From the NCBI RefSeq assembly GCF_013004105.1, contig NZ_CP053085.1, forward strand, positions 1,860,001-1,924,000: DNA of 64,000 nucleotides, given 5' to 3'. Origin of the DNA: Gemmatimonas groenlandica. Its GTDB lineage: Bacteria > Gemmatimonadota > Gemmatimonadetes > Gemmatimonadales > Gemmatimonadaceae. A model generated the notes under the pieces. It did not search any database and was not told the DNA's origin. It saw only the letters and a list, made by a program, of their open reading frames with translations. The translations under genes were made by a program, and so were the position numbers. Each line of letters begins with the position of its first letter. Position 1 is the first letter of the stretch. Positions 51,311 to 57,778 of this stretch are shown in pieces.

Positions 51311-51925
51311 TCAGGTGCCCGCGACCACGGGATTCGACACGATACTGAGCCCCAGCAGCTCCACTTCGACCACATCGCCCGGATGCAGGGCTTTCGTCCC
51401 TGCTGGGGTGCCGGTTGCCACAATGTCGCCCGGCTCGAGCGTCATGAACTGCGAGATGAACGACAGCAACATCGGGATCGGGAACACCATGTCGGCCGCC
51501 GTGGCCCGCTGGCATTCCACGCCATTCACGCGGGTGACCAGCGTGATCCCCGACAGATCGGCCGGCGCGGCGCCTTCCGGACCGATCGGGCAGAACGTGT
51601 CCATCCCCTTCGCCCGCGACCACTGACTGTCGCTGCGCTGCAAATCACGCGCGGTCACGTCGTTCAGCGCCACGATCCCAGCAATGCCGGCGATGGCTTC
51701 TTCTTCGGTGGCCTTGGTGAGCCGCTTGCCGATCACGAGCGCGATCTCACCTTCGAACTCGATGTGGGTGGAGATGGGATGCAGCACGATCGCATCGCCT
51801 TCGCGGATGATCGACGAGGGCGGCTTGAGGAAGAACATCGGCTCTTTCGGCACATCGTTGCCCATTTCCTGGGCGTGCGCGACGTAATTGCGGCCAACGC
51901 AAACGATCTTTGACGGAGTATGCAT
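51311..51925 (-). CDS. fumarylacetoacetate hydrolase-family protein
   Basis: The 204-residue protein belongs to the FAH fold family, which includes FAH, 2-oxopent-4-enoate hydratase and acylpyruvase. It has KIVCVGRNYVAHAQEMGN (about 6-23), FEGEIALVIGKR (about 57-68, metal-ligand Glu-x-Glu), VTARDLQ, and GDIVATGTPAGT (about 174-185). The length and the motif KPPSSIIREGD suggest acylpyruvase/FAHD1-like rather than true fumarylacetoacetase. I chose ATG 51925. Probable substrates are oxaloacetate or acylpyruvates; this is family inference. Confidence 0.87.
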   Translation of the reverse strand: MHTPSKIVCVGRNYVAHAQEMGNDVPKEPMFFLKPPSSIIREGDAIVLHPISTHIEFEGEIALVIGKRLTKATEEEAIAGIAGIVALNDVTARDLQRSDSQWSRAKGMDTFCPIGPEGAAPADLSGITLVTRVNGVECQRATAADMVFPIPMLLSFISQFMTLEPGDIVATGTPAGTKALHPGDVVEVELLGLSIVSNPVVAGT

Positions 51926-52098
51926 GTGAGCTCGCGGGTGCTGAGTCGGAGTAGCGGTGAATGCGCGTGCCAAAAGCTATCCAACTTTCCGGGATTTCGT
52001 GCGGGCTAATCTCAGGCGCCACGTGAACAGCCAACTGCTTCACCGCGAATTTGCGCCGACGCGACACGGATGGGCGCCACGAAGGCTTGCCGTTTTCC

Positions 52099-54681
52099 TT
52101 ATTCAGATAGCTGCTGTTCATCCGTGCGGTGTTCGCGTGAATAGAACCGAGACACTTCATCGCGCACCGTACCCCACGGTCCCGTCACTCTTTTTGCGGG
52201 CGGCAGCGCGTTCAGCAAATCGCGTCCGTAGCGCTTGGTGACCACGCGTGGGTCACTGATGACGACCACACCGGAGTCGGTGGCGGTCCGGATGAGCCTT
52301 CCGAAGCCCTGCTTGAGACGCAGCGACGCGTGCGGCAACATGAACTCCACGAACGCATTGCCGCCGCGCGCTTCGATCGCTTCGCACTGCGCCGCCACCA
52401 TGGGCTCGGTGGGCACGCGGAAGGGCAGCTTCGCGATCAGCAAGCCACGGAGCGCGTTGCCCGGCACGTCCACCCCTTCCCAGAACGTCGCGGTACCCAG
52501 GAGCACGGCGCGGCCAGAGTCGCGGAAGCGCTGCAGCAACACATCGCGAGGCTCCTCACCGTGCACCAAGAGTGGCGTCGGTCCATCCATCCCCATCTCG
52601 CGCAGCTGCTGCGCCATCTCGCGCACGTCGCGATGACTGGTGAACAGCCCGAATAGTCCGCCGTCACTCGCGATGATCAGGTCGCGCATCTGCTGCACGA
52701 CCGCCGCGAAGTGTTCACGCGGATGTTCGTTCGGCGCCGGCAAATCCGTGGGCACCACCAGCAGCGCCTGCCGCGGATAGTTGAACGGAGACTCGAAAAT
52801 CGCCGTGCGCTTGGTGAACTTGCCTTCGTCGAGCCCCAGCCGCTGTTCGAGAAAGCCGAAGCCACCGTCGGTGGCCAACGTGGCACTCGTGATCACCGTG
52901 GTCTCCACGCGACCAAACAGGTCGTCGCGCAGCACCGGCGCCAGGTCGAGCGGCACGCAATGCACCGCCACGTTGCGCTCGGTGGCGGTCGGCTTCCCCT
53001 GAAATTCCATCCAGCGCACCACCGGATCCTTGTCCTTGGGCGGCTGCAGCCCGCGCGACAATGAATCACCGGCGCCCGCCAACCGACGCGTCACGGCGCG
53101 CACTTCGTTCAGCAGCGGCGCCATCTCTTCGCTGCGCTTCTGATCACTTTCCAATCGCTCGGTCACCAACCGCAGCCCGTCGCTGAGCGACGCGATCTCG
53201 ATGAGCAGTTCGGCCAGCGTGTCTTCGATGCCGTTCAACCACAACGGATGCTGCTGAAATTCATCAGTCAGCCGCAGAATCGGCGCCCCGGTGCCTTCGA
53301 GCACCGCCGACAGCAGCTCGAACAGCAGCTGCGTACGATCACGCGCCGTAGCCGCACTCGACACCATGCGCTCACGCACCAAATCGAGACTGGCCACGCT
53401 GTGTAGATCGCTGAAGCCGCCCAGCCGGGCCGCGAGTGCGGGCAACAATCCCTTGCCACGGCGCTCGAGTCGGTTGAACAACCGCGCGAGTGCGCGGCGC
53501 GTGATCGAGCTGCCAAGGTGCGACGCGGCCGCATCTTCGAGATGGTGGCCTTCGTCGATCACCAGGCGTTTGTACGCCGGCAGCACGGCCGAGTCTTCCC
53601 AGTTCTGCGCCTGCCGTCGCACGGCAACGTCCGACAACAGCAGGTGGTGATTCACCACCACCACATCAGCCGCCGCCGCTTCCTTGCGCGCCTTGAACAG
53701 AAAGCACTTGTCGTAGAACGAGCACTTCATACGCCCGCACAAATCAGGCTCGGCCGCGACCTCATCCCACACATCCGGGCGCGGCGGCGTGGGCAGATCG
53801 GCCAGTGTGCCGTCCTGCGTTTTCTCGGCCCATTCGGCGATCTGCTCTACATCGCCGGCGCCGCCGTCGTCGAACAGCGCCGCCCCTGCCCCGCGCGCCT
53901 GCTCGAGGCGCATGAGACAGAGATAGTTGCGCCATCCCTTCAACAACGCGAAGCGCACCTTCTGGTCGGTGAGCGCGCGCTGCAGGAAGGGCAAGTCCTT
54001 CGCGACCAACTGCTCCTGCAGCGTGATCGTATTGGTCGAGACGATCGTGCGTTCACCGTTGGCTGCGGCCCATCGCAACGCGGGCACGAGATAGCCCAAC
54101 GACTTGCCCACGCCGGTACCGGCTTCGAGCAGCGCCACGCCACCGCGATTGAACGTCTCGGTGACCGCGGCCGCCATTGCCCGCTGACTGGGCCGGTCTT
54201 CGTAGTCGCGCGAGCCGCTCACGCGCTGCATGGTCTGCGCGATCAGGCCGTAGGGCCCGAGCGTGACATCCACGTCGTCGAGCGACACCGGCAACTTCTG
54301 TTTGCTGCGCGGCACTTCGGCCACCACGTACACGCGGGTGGCCTCGTTGTCCACGATCGCGAAGCCCACACCGTTGCCGTGAATGCGCGCCGCCACTTCC
54401 AGATCGGCGTCACTGGGCTCGAGCAATCCCGACGGATGGTTGTGCAACATCAACTCGCCGCGCTCAGCCACTCCAGGCAGCGCCAGCACACTGCGCACGT
54501 CGCCGCGGAACACCACGCGCGCCGTCGTGATCAGGTTCTCGTCGTCGACGGTGCACACAAAGCACACTTCATTGCCGCCGGCGAGTTTGATCGCCACCCG
54601 CACGGCGGAGGCGGCCTTCGGTGACAGGCGCGTTTCACCCACCGTCTTCGCGCCCGCCTTCACCACACGCTTGCCCGTCAC
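52099..54681 (-). CDS. JAMM (RadC-like) domain fused to DinG-type DNA helicase
   Basis: The 860-residue protein joins two DNA-related modules. Residues 10-125 are a RadC-like MPN/JAMM domain with an intact metal motif: HNHPSGLLEPSDAD (His80, His82, Ser90, Asp93). Residues 140-860 are a DinG/XPD-like superfamily 2 helicase. It has Walker A EAGTGVGKS (186-194), iron-sulfur cysteines Cys255, 315, 320 and 326, DEGHH (376-380), and later motifs including VITSATL, LLGTATFWEGVDVPG and LKQGFGRLIR. DinG unwinds R-loops and other stalled structures. The start is GTG 54681, overlapping the stop of the next gene upstream (GTGA). The JAMM fusion is unusual. Confidence 0.9.
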   Translation of the reverse strand: MTGKRVVKAGAKTVGETRLSPKAASAVRVAIKLAGGNEVCFVCTVDDENLITTARVVFRGDVRSVLALPGVAERGELMLHNHPSGLLEPSDADLEVAARIHGNGVGFAIVDNEATRVYVVAEVPRSKQKLPVSLDDVDVTLGPYGLIAQTMQRVSGSRDYEDRPSQRAMAAAVTETFNRGGVALLEAGTGVGKSLGYLVPALRWAAANGERTIVSTNTITLQEQLVAKDLPFLQRALTDQKVRFALLKGWRNYLCLMRLEQARGAGAALFDDGGAGDVEQIAEWAEKTQDGTLADLPTPPRPDVWDEVAAEPDLCGRMKCSFYDKCFLFKARKEAAAADVVVVNHHLLLSDVAVRRQAQNWEDSAVLPAYKRLVIDEGHHLEDAAASHLGSSITRRALARLFNRLERRGKGLLPALAARLGGFSDLHSVASLDLVRERMVSSAATARDRTQLLFELLSAVLEGTGAPILRLTDEFQQHPLWLNGIEDTLAELLIEIASLSDGLRLVTERLESDQKRSEEMAPLLNEVRAVTRRLAGAGDSLSRGLQPPKDKDPVVRWMEFQGKPTATERNVAVHCVPLDLAPVLRDDLFGRVETTVITSATLATDGGFGFLEQRLGLDEGKFTKRTAIFESPFNYPRQALLVVPTDLPAPNEHPREHFAAVVQQMRDLIIASDGGLFGLFTSHRDVREMAQQLREMGMDGPTPLLVHGEEPRDVLLQRFRDSGRAVLLGTATFWEGVDVPGNALRGLLIAKLPFRVPTEPMVAAQCEAIEARGGNAFVEFMLPHASLRLKQGFGRLIRTATDSGVVVISDPRVVTKRYGRDLLNALPPAKRVTGPWGTVRDEVSRFYSREHRTDEQQLSE

Positions 54682-55973
54682 GTCTTGCGCGGCTTCTTCT
54701 TCGCAGCGGGGAACAGGACGTTGTTCAGGATGAGCCGGTAGCCGGGCGAGTTCGGGTGCAGCGACAGATCAGTGGGCGCACTGCCGATGGCGTGCTGCGC
54801 GTCTTCGGGGTCGTGACCGCCGAGGAAGGTCCACGAACCCTTACCCGCGTCACCGTGCAGATACTTGCTCCACGGCGCACCATCTTCGCTGGCGAGCACG
54901 GTCACGCCGGGCTTCACGATCGCGCGATTGAAGCTCGTGGTCACGCCGTAGAAATCGGGCACCACGGTGCGATGATTCTGCACCAGCATCGTGGCGACGG
55001 GATCGAGCTTGGCGGAGAAGTCGAACAGCGTGAACGTGCCGAGCGGCTGACGACGGGCCGGCACGTTCACCTGATGGCCGTCGATGTCGCTGAGCGCGTT
55101 GATGTACGGCGACGGTTCGACATGCGCCCCCGTAAAGGCCAGCGCCCGCGTCCAGTCCATGCGCGCGTCGGCATCGGGCGCCGGCGGGGTGCCGTCGGAG
55201 AATGGGCCGGCGATGTCGACCGTGAACGCTGCGATCGCGAGGTCGAGCGACTCCGTGGCACCGCACATGGCGAACAGGAATCCACCACGTTCCACGAAGC
55301 CACGGATGTTGTCGGCCACTGCCTTCTTGAGCGCTGGCACGTCGGCCTTGCCGAACCGCTTGGCCATGGCAATGTCGCGCTCACGCTGCGCGACAAACCA
55401 CGGTGCATCGCGGTACGCGAGATACAACTTGTTGAACTGGCCCGTGAAATCTTCGTGGTGCAAATGCACCCAGTCGTACTTCGACAGATCACCCTGCATT
55501 ACAGCATCGTCCCACACCGACGTGAACTCGATGCCGGCATACGTGAGCGCGAGCGTCACCGCATCGTCCCAGGGTGGCTGATCGACCGGGCGGTAAATCG
55601 CGATCTTGGGGGCGCGCTCCAGCACGACGGCGTCCATGTTGCCGCCGGCGACTTCGGCGCGCACTGCGGCCACTGCGGCATCGGTCATCAACTCGATGCT
55701 CACGCCATCGAGCGCGGCCCGACGACGCAGATCGGGCGCGTCGGGCAGCAGGAACGAGCCGCCGCGATAGTTCAGCAGCCACTCGGCCTTCTGCCCGTTC
55801 TTGAGCGCGAGATACGTGACGCCATACGCCTTCAGGTGATTGCGCTGACTGTCGTCCATCGGCAGCAACATCGACTGGGCCGACAGCGAGCGCGCCATGG
55901 TGAGTGACACCATGGTCACGAGCAGGGCCGCGATCACGCGGCTCCAGAGGGTGCAACGAACGAACGAGCGCAT
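54678..55973 (-). CDS. exported conserved protein, usually mislabelled asparagine synthetase B
   Basis: The protein has 431 residues from ATG 55973; a TTG at 56000 would add nine. It has a signal peptide (ending SLSAQS) and no glutaminase or synthetase motif of true AsnB. Conserved blocks include MDDSQRNHLKAYGVTYLAL, AEWLLNYRGGSFLLPD, LHHEDFTGQFNKLYLAYRD, GGFLFAMCGATESLDLAIAAF, WTFLGGHDPEDAQH and PNSPGYRLILNNVLFPAAKKK. I recall near-identical blocks in many Bacteroidetes and Gemmatimonadota proteins. The fold may be a glutamine-amidotransferase-like or ThuA-like one, but this is inference. It is coupled to both neighbours in the block 52099-63425. Function unknown. Confidence 0.8.
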   Translation of the reverse strand: MRSFVRCTLWSRVIAALLVTMVSLTMARSLSAQSMLLPMDDSQRNHLKAYGVTYLALKNGQKAEWLLNYRGGSFLLPDAPDLRRRAALDGVSIELMTDAAVAAVRAEVAGGNMDAVVLERAPKIAIYRPVDQPPWDDAVTLALTYAGIEFTSVWDDAVMQGDLSKYDWVHLHHEDFTGQFNKLYLAYRDAPWFVAQRERDIAMAKRFGKADVPALKKAVADNIRGFVERGGFLFAMCGATESLDLAIAAFTVDIAGPFSDGTPPAPDADARMDWTRALAFTGAHVEPSPYINALSDIDGHQVNVPARRQPLGTFTLFDFSAKLDPVATMLVQNHRTVVPDFYGVTTSFNRAIVKPGVTVLASEDGAPWSKYLHGDAGKGSWTFLGGHDPEDAQHAIGSAPTDLSLHPNSPGYRLILNNVLFPAAKKKPRKT

Positions 55974-55996
55974 AGGAGAAATGTACCCGCGAACGC

Positions 55997-57778
55997 TCAA
56001 TGAGTCACAGGCGGTACCTGCCCTTTCATCCGTTCGAGTTCACGACGCGCCTGTGGGGCCAGCGCGCTGGTGGGATAGTCCACGAGCAGTGTTTCGAAGC
56101 GGGTGGTGGCGCCGACCTTGTCGCCGGCCGCGAGCAGTGCGCGTGCCGACGCCAGCAGCGCCTCCGCCGCCTCGGGGCTCTTGGGCCACGTGGCGATGAT
56201 GCGATCCCACAGCGTCATTGCGCCGGCCTTGGGTGAGAGCCGCGCCGCCATGGACAGCAGCGCCGGTGCCGCTGGCCCAACCGAGTCGGACAGCGCGATG
56301 AAGCGCGCCGCCGCGCCGGCGGAATCGCGTCGGGCCAGCGCGAGAAACGCCGCGCCGAGTCCCGGTAATTGATCGACCCGCGTGCGGGCCAGAATGCCCA
56401 ACGCGTCCACCAACTCACCGCGCTGCGTTGCCGCTCGCACCAGTCGCTTGCGAGCAGTGGCGAGGTCACCGTCGTAAAGCGCCAGCCAGCCGGCCGTTTC
56501 GTCGTCGTCTTCGAGGTCGGTACCCTTCACCGTCTCTTTCGCGCGCGCTAAGTCGCCGGCTCGCAGATACGCACCCACCAACGGACGGGCCATCGCCGAC
56601 CGGGCGGTTTCATCGAGCAGCTTACCCGACGCCTCGATGCGCTGTTGCGCTTCGGCGGCACGACCAAGTTCGCCGAGGGCCGCGATCTCGATCGGCAGCA
56701 GCGCGCGGGCACGCACGACGTCGGTGCCCGGTGATTTTCGCGACGTGAGTTGCAATGCCCCCGCAGCGTCTCCCGCATTGAGCGCCGCCTGCGCGGCACG
56801 CTGTTGCGCCTCGAGGTCACCACGCTTCTCGAACACCGCTGTCCACGCGTCACGCGCGACCAGCCACGACTGCGCCAGCTCGGCGCGCTCTCCGAACGCG
56901 CGCCACGCCGCCGACGTGGAGTCATCGGCTTTCACCGATGCCAGCGCGAACCACGCACGGCGGGGCTCGCCCCACGCCAACTCGAGCGCCGAGAGCAATC
57001 GACGCGGCGCCAAGAGCGCCGGGTCGGCCAACAGCACGGTGCGGATGGAGTCGCGCGTCGGCGCCGGTGCGCGATTCAGTGCGAACATTGCGGCCGTTTC
57101 GAGATACGGCTCGTCGCGCAGGGCGTCGCGGAACGCCACGGCGGCGGCGTTCCAGCGCCCGAGGGCGACATGCAGCTGCGCCACTTCACCGGAGAGGGCA
57201 CCGCCAGAACCCAGCAAGCGACCGGCCTCGCCAAGCACCGAGTCGGCCGCCTGCGCTCGTCCCTGTTGCAGCAGCAGCCGCGCGTATTCGCGGAACGGCG
57301 CGCCGTCGTTGCCGGCCGCGCGACGCCAGGACGTGAACGCGATGCGTGCTTCGTCGTCGCGCCCGATGCTGACCAACGCGCGCAACTGAATGCTGCGCGC
57401 CACCGGATCGGTGGGACGCAGCTGCACCACGCGCTGCGCGACGGGGATAATGGAATCGCGCATGCCCAACTCGGCCCACACACGCTCGAGCCCGAGCAAC
57501 GACAACGCCACCTTGTCGCCGTCGGAGTTGCCAGGAATGAGCGCACGCTGCAACACCTCGCGATAGGCGAGGGCCGCTTTCTTCATGTCGCCCTTGTCTT
57601 CGGCATCGAGCGCAGTACCCAACGCGTCGGCCGAGTCCACGCGCGTGGCAGGCGGCCGTGCACCGCCCTGCGATCCGCTTTGCGCCTGTGCGGTCGTTGA
57701 TGCGATCGACAGTGCGCCGATCGACAGCGCGAAGATGACGCGAGGCAACTTGAGCACCTTACGGCGGCGTCGTGCCAT
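55997..57778 (-). CDS. exported TPR-repeat protein
   Basis: The 593-residue protein has a basic n-region (MARRRRK) and signal peptide (ending AQAQ, about 32), then helical repeats of TPR type. A clear first unit is ALGTALDAEDKGDMKKAALAY, and a last unit is AEALLASARALLAAGDKVGAT followed by DYPTSALAPQARRELERMKG, reminiscent of YbgF/BamD-type TPRs. It is alanine-rich and probably assembles a periplasmic complex. ATG 57778 lies 20 bases inside the end of the DUF4175 gene, and GTG 57757 is an alternative. Its stop overlaps a possible TTG start of the next gene (TTGA). Partner unknown; the neighbours suggest the DUF4175 protein. Confidence 0.75.
   Translation of the reverse strand: MARRRRKVLKLPRVIFALSIGALSIASTTAQAQSGSQGGARPPATRVDSADALGTALDAEDKGDMKKAALAYREVLQRALIPGNSDGDKVALSLLGLERVWAELGMRDSIIPVAQRVVQLRPTDPVARSIQLRALVSIGRDDEARIAFTSWRRAAGNDGAPFREYARLLLQQGRAQAADSVLGEAGRLLGSGGALSGEVAQLHVALGRWNAAAVAFRDALRDEPYLETAAMFALNRAPAPTRDSIRTVLLADPALLAPRRLLSALELAWGEPRRAWFALASVKADDSTSAAWRAFGERAELAQSWLVARDAWTAVFEKRGDLEAQQRAAQAALNAGDAAGALQLTSRKSPGTDVVRARALLPIEIAALGELGRAAEAQQRIEASGKLLDETARSAMARPLVGAYLRAGDLARAKETVKGTDLEDDDETAGWLALYDGDLATARKRLVRAATQRGELVDALGILARTRVDQLPGLGAAFLALARRDSAGAAARFIALSDSVGPAAPALLSMAARLSPKAGAMTLWDRIIATWPKSPEAAEALLASARALLAAGDKVGATTRFETLLVDYPTSALAPQARRELERMKGQVPPVTH

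Follow-up and report, generated by a model that had tools for sequence, protein, structure and literature searches.

A RadC-like DinG of Gemmatimonas groenlandica: a JAMM domain fused to a DinG/YoaA-type helicase, kept in most Gemmatimonadota loci and absent or decayed in several lineages

Within a window of 64,000 nucleotides of Gemmatimonas groenlandica (NZ_CP053085.1), positions 54681 to 52099 of the minus strand form one uninterrupted open reading frame of 860 codons, with a GTG start at 54681 and a stop at 52099, and the opposite plus strand is interrupted by stops. The gene (52099..54681) was delimited by the reading frame, Pfam and the AlphaFold2 model, and a 4-base overlap joins it to the stop of the upstream gene; all features given below lie on the same minus strand. 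The 860-aa product starts with a RadC-type JAB/JAMM domain (aa 17-123; 54313..54633) supported by Pfam, NCBIfam and fold. Motif and alignment place the JAMM signature E ... H-x-H ... S-x-x-D in this JAB fold, with the glutamate E38 at 54568..54570 and H80, H82, S90 and D93 in the core HNHPSGLLEPSDAD (aa 80-93; 54403..54444). A DinG/YoaA-type SF2 helicase core follows (aa 157-848; 52138..54213), assigned by Pfam, NCBIfam and structure match. Helicase motifs I, Ia, II, III and VI were found, namely with Walker A (motif I) AGTGVGKS at aa 187-194 (54100..54123), Walker B (motif II) DEGH at aa 376-379 (53545..53556), TSATL at 598 and motif VI QGFGRLIR at aa 791-798 within the Helicase_C_2 domain (aa 667-828; 52198..52683). 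Four iron-sulfur cysteines, C255, C315, C320 and C326 (53704..53919), were identified by motif and alignment, and C255 is replaced by Ser in 13 of the 57 aligned relatives. The AlphaFold2 model has a C-terminal helix (aa 836-850; 52132..52176) placed like the alpha-7 helix of YoaA as described in PMC11981726. The preliminary description had reported a RadC-like JAMM domain fused to a DinG helicase, an intact JAMM motif and a full set of helicase motifs and iron-sulfur cysteines; the single reading frame, the Pfam domains and the joint model bear this out, its residue numbering is correct, and E38, which it omitted, is also present.

The Pfam RadC model (PF04002) matched aa 36-101 with 27.1 bits against a cut-off of 22.1. 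Helicase_C_2 scored 148.8 bits, above its cut-off, as did DEAD, and DEAD_2 was slightly below its own. The best NCBIfam helicase match was YoaA (NF053712; 560.2 bits, below the cut-off of 680), followed by E. coli-type DinG (NF008729; 426.4 bits, below the cut-off of 598). The stand-alone RadC family TIGR00608 gave 22.6 bits against a cut-off of 133.85, and the domain has fewer than 20 residues ahead of it and no N-terminal HhH region. AlphaFold2 modelled the full chain with a mean pLDDT of 91.4 and a pTM of 0.88 from a 57-sequence alignment, and the JAB domain alone reached 88.7. The whole model matched E. coli DinG, S. aureus DinG, CasDinG and XPD. In Foldseek, the front domain matched RadC from Chlorobium tepidum (2QLC) first, then Rpn11, CSN5, AF2198 and PfJAMM1, and structural re-alignment gave Z scores of about 9-11 to the JAMM peptidases Rpn11, CSN5, PfJAMM1 and BubCD. 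A sequence profile of the front domain found only 2QLC in the PDB, through HNHPSG..PS..D.

This architecture has been described before. A 2025 review (Cheng 2025, PMC11981726) names 'RadC-like DinG' as a subgroup, with Desulfuromonas soudanensis as an example, and it describes E, H, H and D as a putative catalytic centre, a resemblance to YoaA and the lack of HolC, and states that experimental work on the subgroup does not exist. RadC-DinG/RAD3-like helicase fusions, in which the domain sits where others carry nucleases, led to the proposal that RadC-type JAB is a nucleic-acid processor or nuclease (PMC5512222, citing Iyer 2011). The protein studied here shares the N-terminal RadC-like domain with E, H, H and D, the complete DinG/YoaA core, the four iron-sulfur cysteines, the C-terminal helix and the lack of HolC in the organism, and it has no distinguishing feature and is an ordinary member. 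The 860-aa protein almost certainly belongs to this subgroup, and the novelty of the fusion implied by the preliminary description is not supported. The main text of the review does not name Gemmatimonadota, and its Table S1 may already include Gemmatimonadales. As far as checked, the texts of PMC11981726 and PMC5512222 do not contain the spread across the phylum, the repeated domain loss and the decay of the metal site that are reported below, and these are new. The same holds, as far as checked, for the finding that JAB domain and helicase are conserved to a similar degree.

The protein resembles E. coli YoaA, which works with HolC, in domain order and C-terminal helix, but it scores below the YoaA cut-off, carries the additional JAMM domain and belongs to a phylum without HolC. 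E. coli DinG (6FWR) is the closest solved structure for the helicase part and has the same iron-sulfur XPD-family fold, although identity over the structural alignment is 26% and E. coli DinG has no JAMM domain. ExoDinG and EndoDinG (S. aureus DinG 8ZEF/9II8 and others) likewise have a hydrolase-type domain N-terminal to the same helicase, but there it is a DnaQ-type or endonuclease domain and here a JAMM domain. The fold of that N-terminal part differs from the JAMM fold. Stand-alone RadC (2QLC and the copy in the same genome) has in common with the fused domain the JAB fold and the HNHPSG....S..D motif, whereas the fused domain leaves no room for the N-terminal HhH region. The canonical RadC of G. 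groenlandica, encoded separately (G000:C1:1106828-1107187), reads HNHPSGDPTPS and ends in DHIIVG; the fused domain has Leu for Pro and lacks DHIIVG.

In G. groenlandica the RadC-like DinG is the only Helicase_C_2 (Rad3/DinG-type helicase) protein, and a search of 150 genomes for Helicase_C_2 found a single such gene in almost every genome that had any. A match was present in 167 of 200 sampled Gemmatimonadota genomes. Several well-assembled lineages of the phylum (f7/g60, g7 and f10) had no Helicase_C_2 match, almost none, or only sub-threshold ones. A same-genus genome has a second, more distant DinG-like stretch (G008:C6:3306-4802; 35-44% identity), possibly a contaminant or an acquired copy. 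DNA records were also scanned for an HNHP-G motif and a Walker A at a fixed distance. At least 119 contigs matched, a lower bound from a sample biased by codon choice, as the CAT codon in the pattern excludes most Gemmatimonadota. By their titles, the matches listed came from Spirochaetota (Treponema, Brachyspira and many others), Desulfuromonadales, Geobacteraceae, Halanaerobiales, Fusobacteriota, KSB1, Dadabacteria, Planctomycetota, Sumerlaeota and a few Gemmatimonadota. The pattern imposes H, N, H, P and G and leaves E38, S90 and D93 unconstrained; E..HNHP..S..D was complete in 115 of the 119 contigs among the matches listed, and the other 4 were truncated or not readable in one frame. A deep-branching RadC-like DinG (L171, CAMCWU010000059.1) lies on a contig, probably misbinned, of a metagenome bin labelled Klebsiella pneumoniae.

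Retention of the signature in so many phyla therefore marks a bacterial family of wide distribution, as opposed to a peculiarity of a single assembly. The architecture search across genomes proposed as a check in the preliminary description thus found the fusion across Gemmatimonadota and in other phyla, which also rejects the idea that it is peculiar to the G. groenlandica genome. The reading that two genes were joined by an annotation or assembly error, raised there as a gene-boundary error unique to one assembly, has practically no credibility: nearly all related genomes carry the fusion in a single frame, which speaks against both chance and a faulty assembly. Dozens of independent genomes share this frame, and in them the distance from the JAMM motif to Walker A hardly varies (about 100-106 residues); the joint AlphaFold2 model of both domains is of high confidence. 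A mobile-element or phage origin was also rejected. Phage records held no match to the N-terminal domain, and among plasmid records a single place covered 80% or more of the N-terminal query, in a Fusobacterium record of 2.1 Mb that resembles a chromosome. The gene is chromosomal and vertically inherited.

The upstream neighbour encodes a 440-aa protein with no family above cut-off in Pfam or NCBIfam (54678..56000), and the downstream neighbour belongs to the FAA-hydrolase family by Pfam (51311..51973). Both are conserved neighbours in Gemmatimonadota with no evident functional link. The order 440-aa protein, RadC-like DinG and FAA-hydrolase recurs across the phylum, often with glutamyl-tRNA synthetase further on, and a TPR protein and a long coiled protein are more distant conserved neighbours. 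The 440-aa protein shows 56-74% identity beside the RadC-like DinG across Gemmatimonadota. A functional gene neighbourhood was considered and rejected, as these conserved neighbours give no pointer to a repair, defence or ubiquitin-like system. HolC was found in none of 61 Gemmatimonadota genomes, including that of G. groenlandica, with positive controls in E. coli and Caulobacter. The YoaA-HolC arrangement therefore does not apply.

The JAB and helicase parts appear to have been inherited together. Over 57 proteins the pairwise distances of the two parts correlated with r = 0.68, a value that none of 2000 permutations reached, and sequences were on average 40% identical to one another in the JAB part and 37% in the helicase (mean pairwise identity). 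This correlation, with similar conservation, fits one old, co-inherited fusion. In a helicase tree built by a quick method from 86 rows with a small outgroup of 7 helicases, the RadC-like DinGs fell on one side of a branch with a modest support of 83, and all Gemmatimonadota formed one clade with a support of 100. The fusion is real, old and common to many bacterial phyla, and our data fit a single origin, to which the tree gives modest support.

Loss of the JAMM motif in relatives, which the preliminary description had named as a result that would speak against it, is not the rule, since the large majority keep the motif, but several lineages show decay or deletion of the domain. Of 81 Gemmatimonadota loci, 69 have an intact JAMM motif; odd cases were deliberately included in this sample, and loss is therefore over-represented. 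Genera g24, g26 and g5 and locus L053 lack the domain, and they fall at three places within the clade of carriers. At least 4 changes between presence and absence map onto the helicase tree, one of them being the split from the outgroup. Gain and loss are not separable by the tree alone. Since the rows without the domain are nested among carriers, the simpler reading is loss, with about three deletions in Gemmatimonadota. In g24 and g5 (L046, L047, L048, L051 and L052) the loss of the JAMM domain coincides with absence of the upstream 440-aa gene from its usual place, as if one rearrangement had taken away both. In g26 (L049, L050 and L080) the domain is absent and the upstream gene is retained. 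Replacement in trans by a free-standing relative of the fused domain was rejected, as the 9 genomes without the domain that were searched hold canonical RadC copies only.

In other cases the metal site is decayed and the fold is kept. These are L054/L055 and L079 in Gemmatimonadota and, outside the phylum, Fusobacterium vincentii L086, unlike other Fusobacteriota, which retain the site. This amounts to about three such decays across the family. In L086 the JAB domain is of normal length and RTTKP stands in place of HNHPS. The record (NZ_CP084075.1) is titled as F. vincentii plasmid pSB055A, and is 2.1 Mb long and chromosome-like. A domain that is conserved yet repeatedly deleted or decayed, with no substitute gene, suggests to us strong selection on a metal site whose function is nonetheless accessory to the helicase. 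The same cases might point to a mainly structural or regulatory domain, a metal-bound docking or DNA-binding module that would gate or target the helicase with catalysis secondary. The fold outlasts the metal site in L086, L054, L055 and L079, these cases resemble the pseudo-exonuclease domain of pExoDinG (PMC11981726), and other lineages delete the entire domain and retain the helicase. However, the five metal-site residues are nearly invariant in many phyla, a pattern difficult to account for unless the site is catalytic or must bind metal, and we regard a mainly structural role as doubtful.

The reading that we prefer, with a probability of roughly 45%, is a RadC-like DinG in which the helicase positions a metal-dependent, DNA-processing JAMM domain. 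DinG/YoaA helicases translocate 5'-3' on single-stranded DNA, with forks, R-loops and damaged 3' ends as their sites of action. Unwinding of R-loops or forks by the present protein, as the preliminary description suggested, would follow from this kinship only. At stalled or damaged forks the helicase would load onto single-stranded DNA and unwind the downstream duplex 5'-3'. The JAMM domain, held next to the motor, may be a metal-dependent hydrolase acting on the strand that unwinding exposes or displaces. Its activity would be accessory, and lineages could drop the domain and keep the helicase for this reason. A nucleic-acid-processing role for the domain, taken by itself, is tentative and falls somewhat short of an even chance. 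We infer hydrolysis of unwound DNA by analogy, because nucleases occupy the same position in ExoDinG and EndoDinG. We know of no RadC-type domain for which nuclease activity has been demonstrated, and the literature searched yielded no paper on experimental RadC activity. Processing of the exposed or displaced strand is the role proposed for two domains that sit N-terminally where the JAMM domain sits here, the DnaQ exonuclease in ExoDinG and the endonuclease in EndoDinG (PMC11981726). Several observations count against a nuclease. In the same review, DALI with the RadC-like domain matched metalloproteases and no nucleases, and E. coli radC mutants are reported to have normal DNA-damage sensitivity (PMC11981726). 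The structural neighbours found here are likewise JAMM peptidases (Rpn11, CSN5 and PfJAMM1). The conserved neighbours are not DNA-repair genes, and the domain is dispensable in several lineages.

These fold neighbours, at Z of about 9-11 with BubCD among them, lend some weight to the main alternative, in which the JAMM domain would be a peptidase. The motor might meet and unfold protein roadblocks or DNA-protein crosslinks and the metalloprotease might cleave them, as FANCJ and SPRTN do in animals. FANCJ is an XPD-family iron-sulfur helicase too. It unfolds the protein adduct and so enables cleavage by SPRTN (PMC12279946), and the JAB domains characterised to date are peptidases (PMC5512222). 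Against this, a fold match does not demonstrate function, Aravind and colleagues consider that RadC-type JAB domains probably lack the groove for the ubiquitin tail (PMC5512222), and neither a ubiquitin-like gene nor an E1/E2 enzyme was recognised next to the RadC-like DinG. We consider a peptidase rather unlikely, a little less so than a mainly structural domain. The metalloprotease-like or nucleic-acid sensing module of the preliminary description is one of several possible roles for the domain.

A more specific form of the peptidase alternative, a one-polypeptide repair machine for DNA-protein crosslinks or protein roadblocks in which an XPD-family motor would unfold and a JAMM metalloprotease would cut, modelled on the FANCJ-SPRTN analogy, is improbable. 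If true, it would be a self-contained counterpart of that animal pair in phyla where the RadC-like DinG is the main or only DinG. To our knowledge, RadC is among the most widely spread bacterial proteins without a known biochemical activity, and E. coli data have uncoupled it from repair. Whether DNA processing, as we prefer, or peptide cleavage is the activity, a RadC-type metal site on a helicase whose substrates can be made in the tube would allow a direct assay of the role of the site. Variants with an intact, a decayed and a deleted domain are at hand within one phylum as natural controls.
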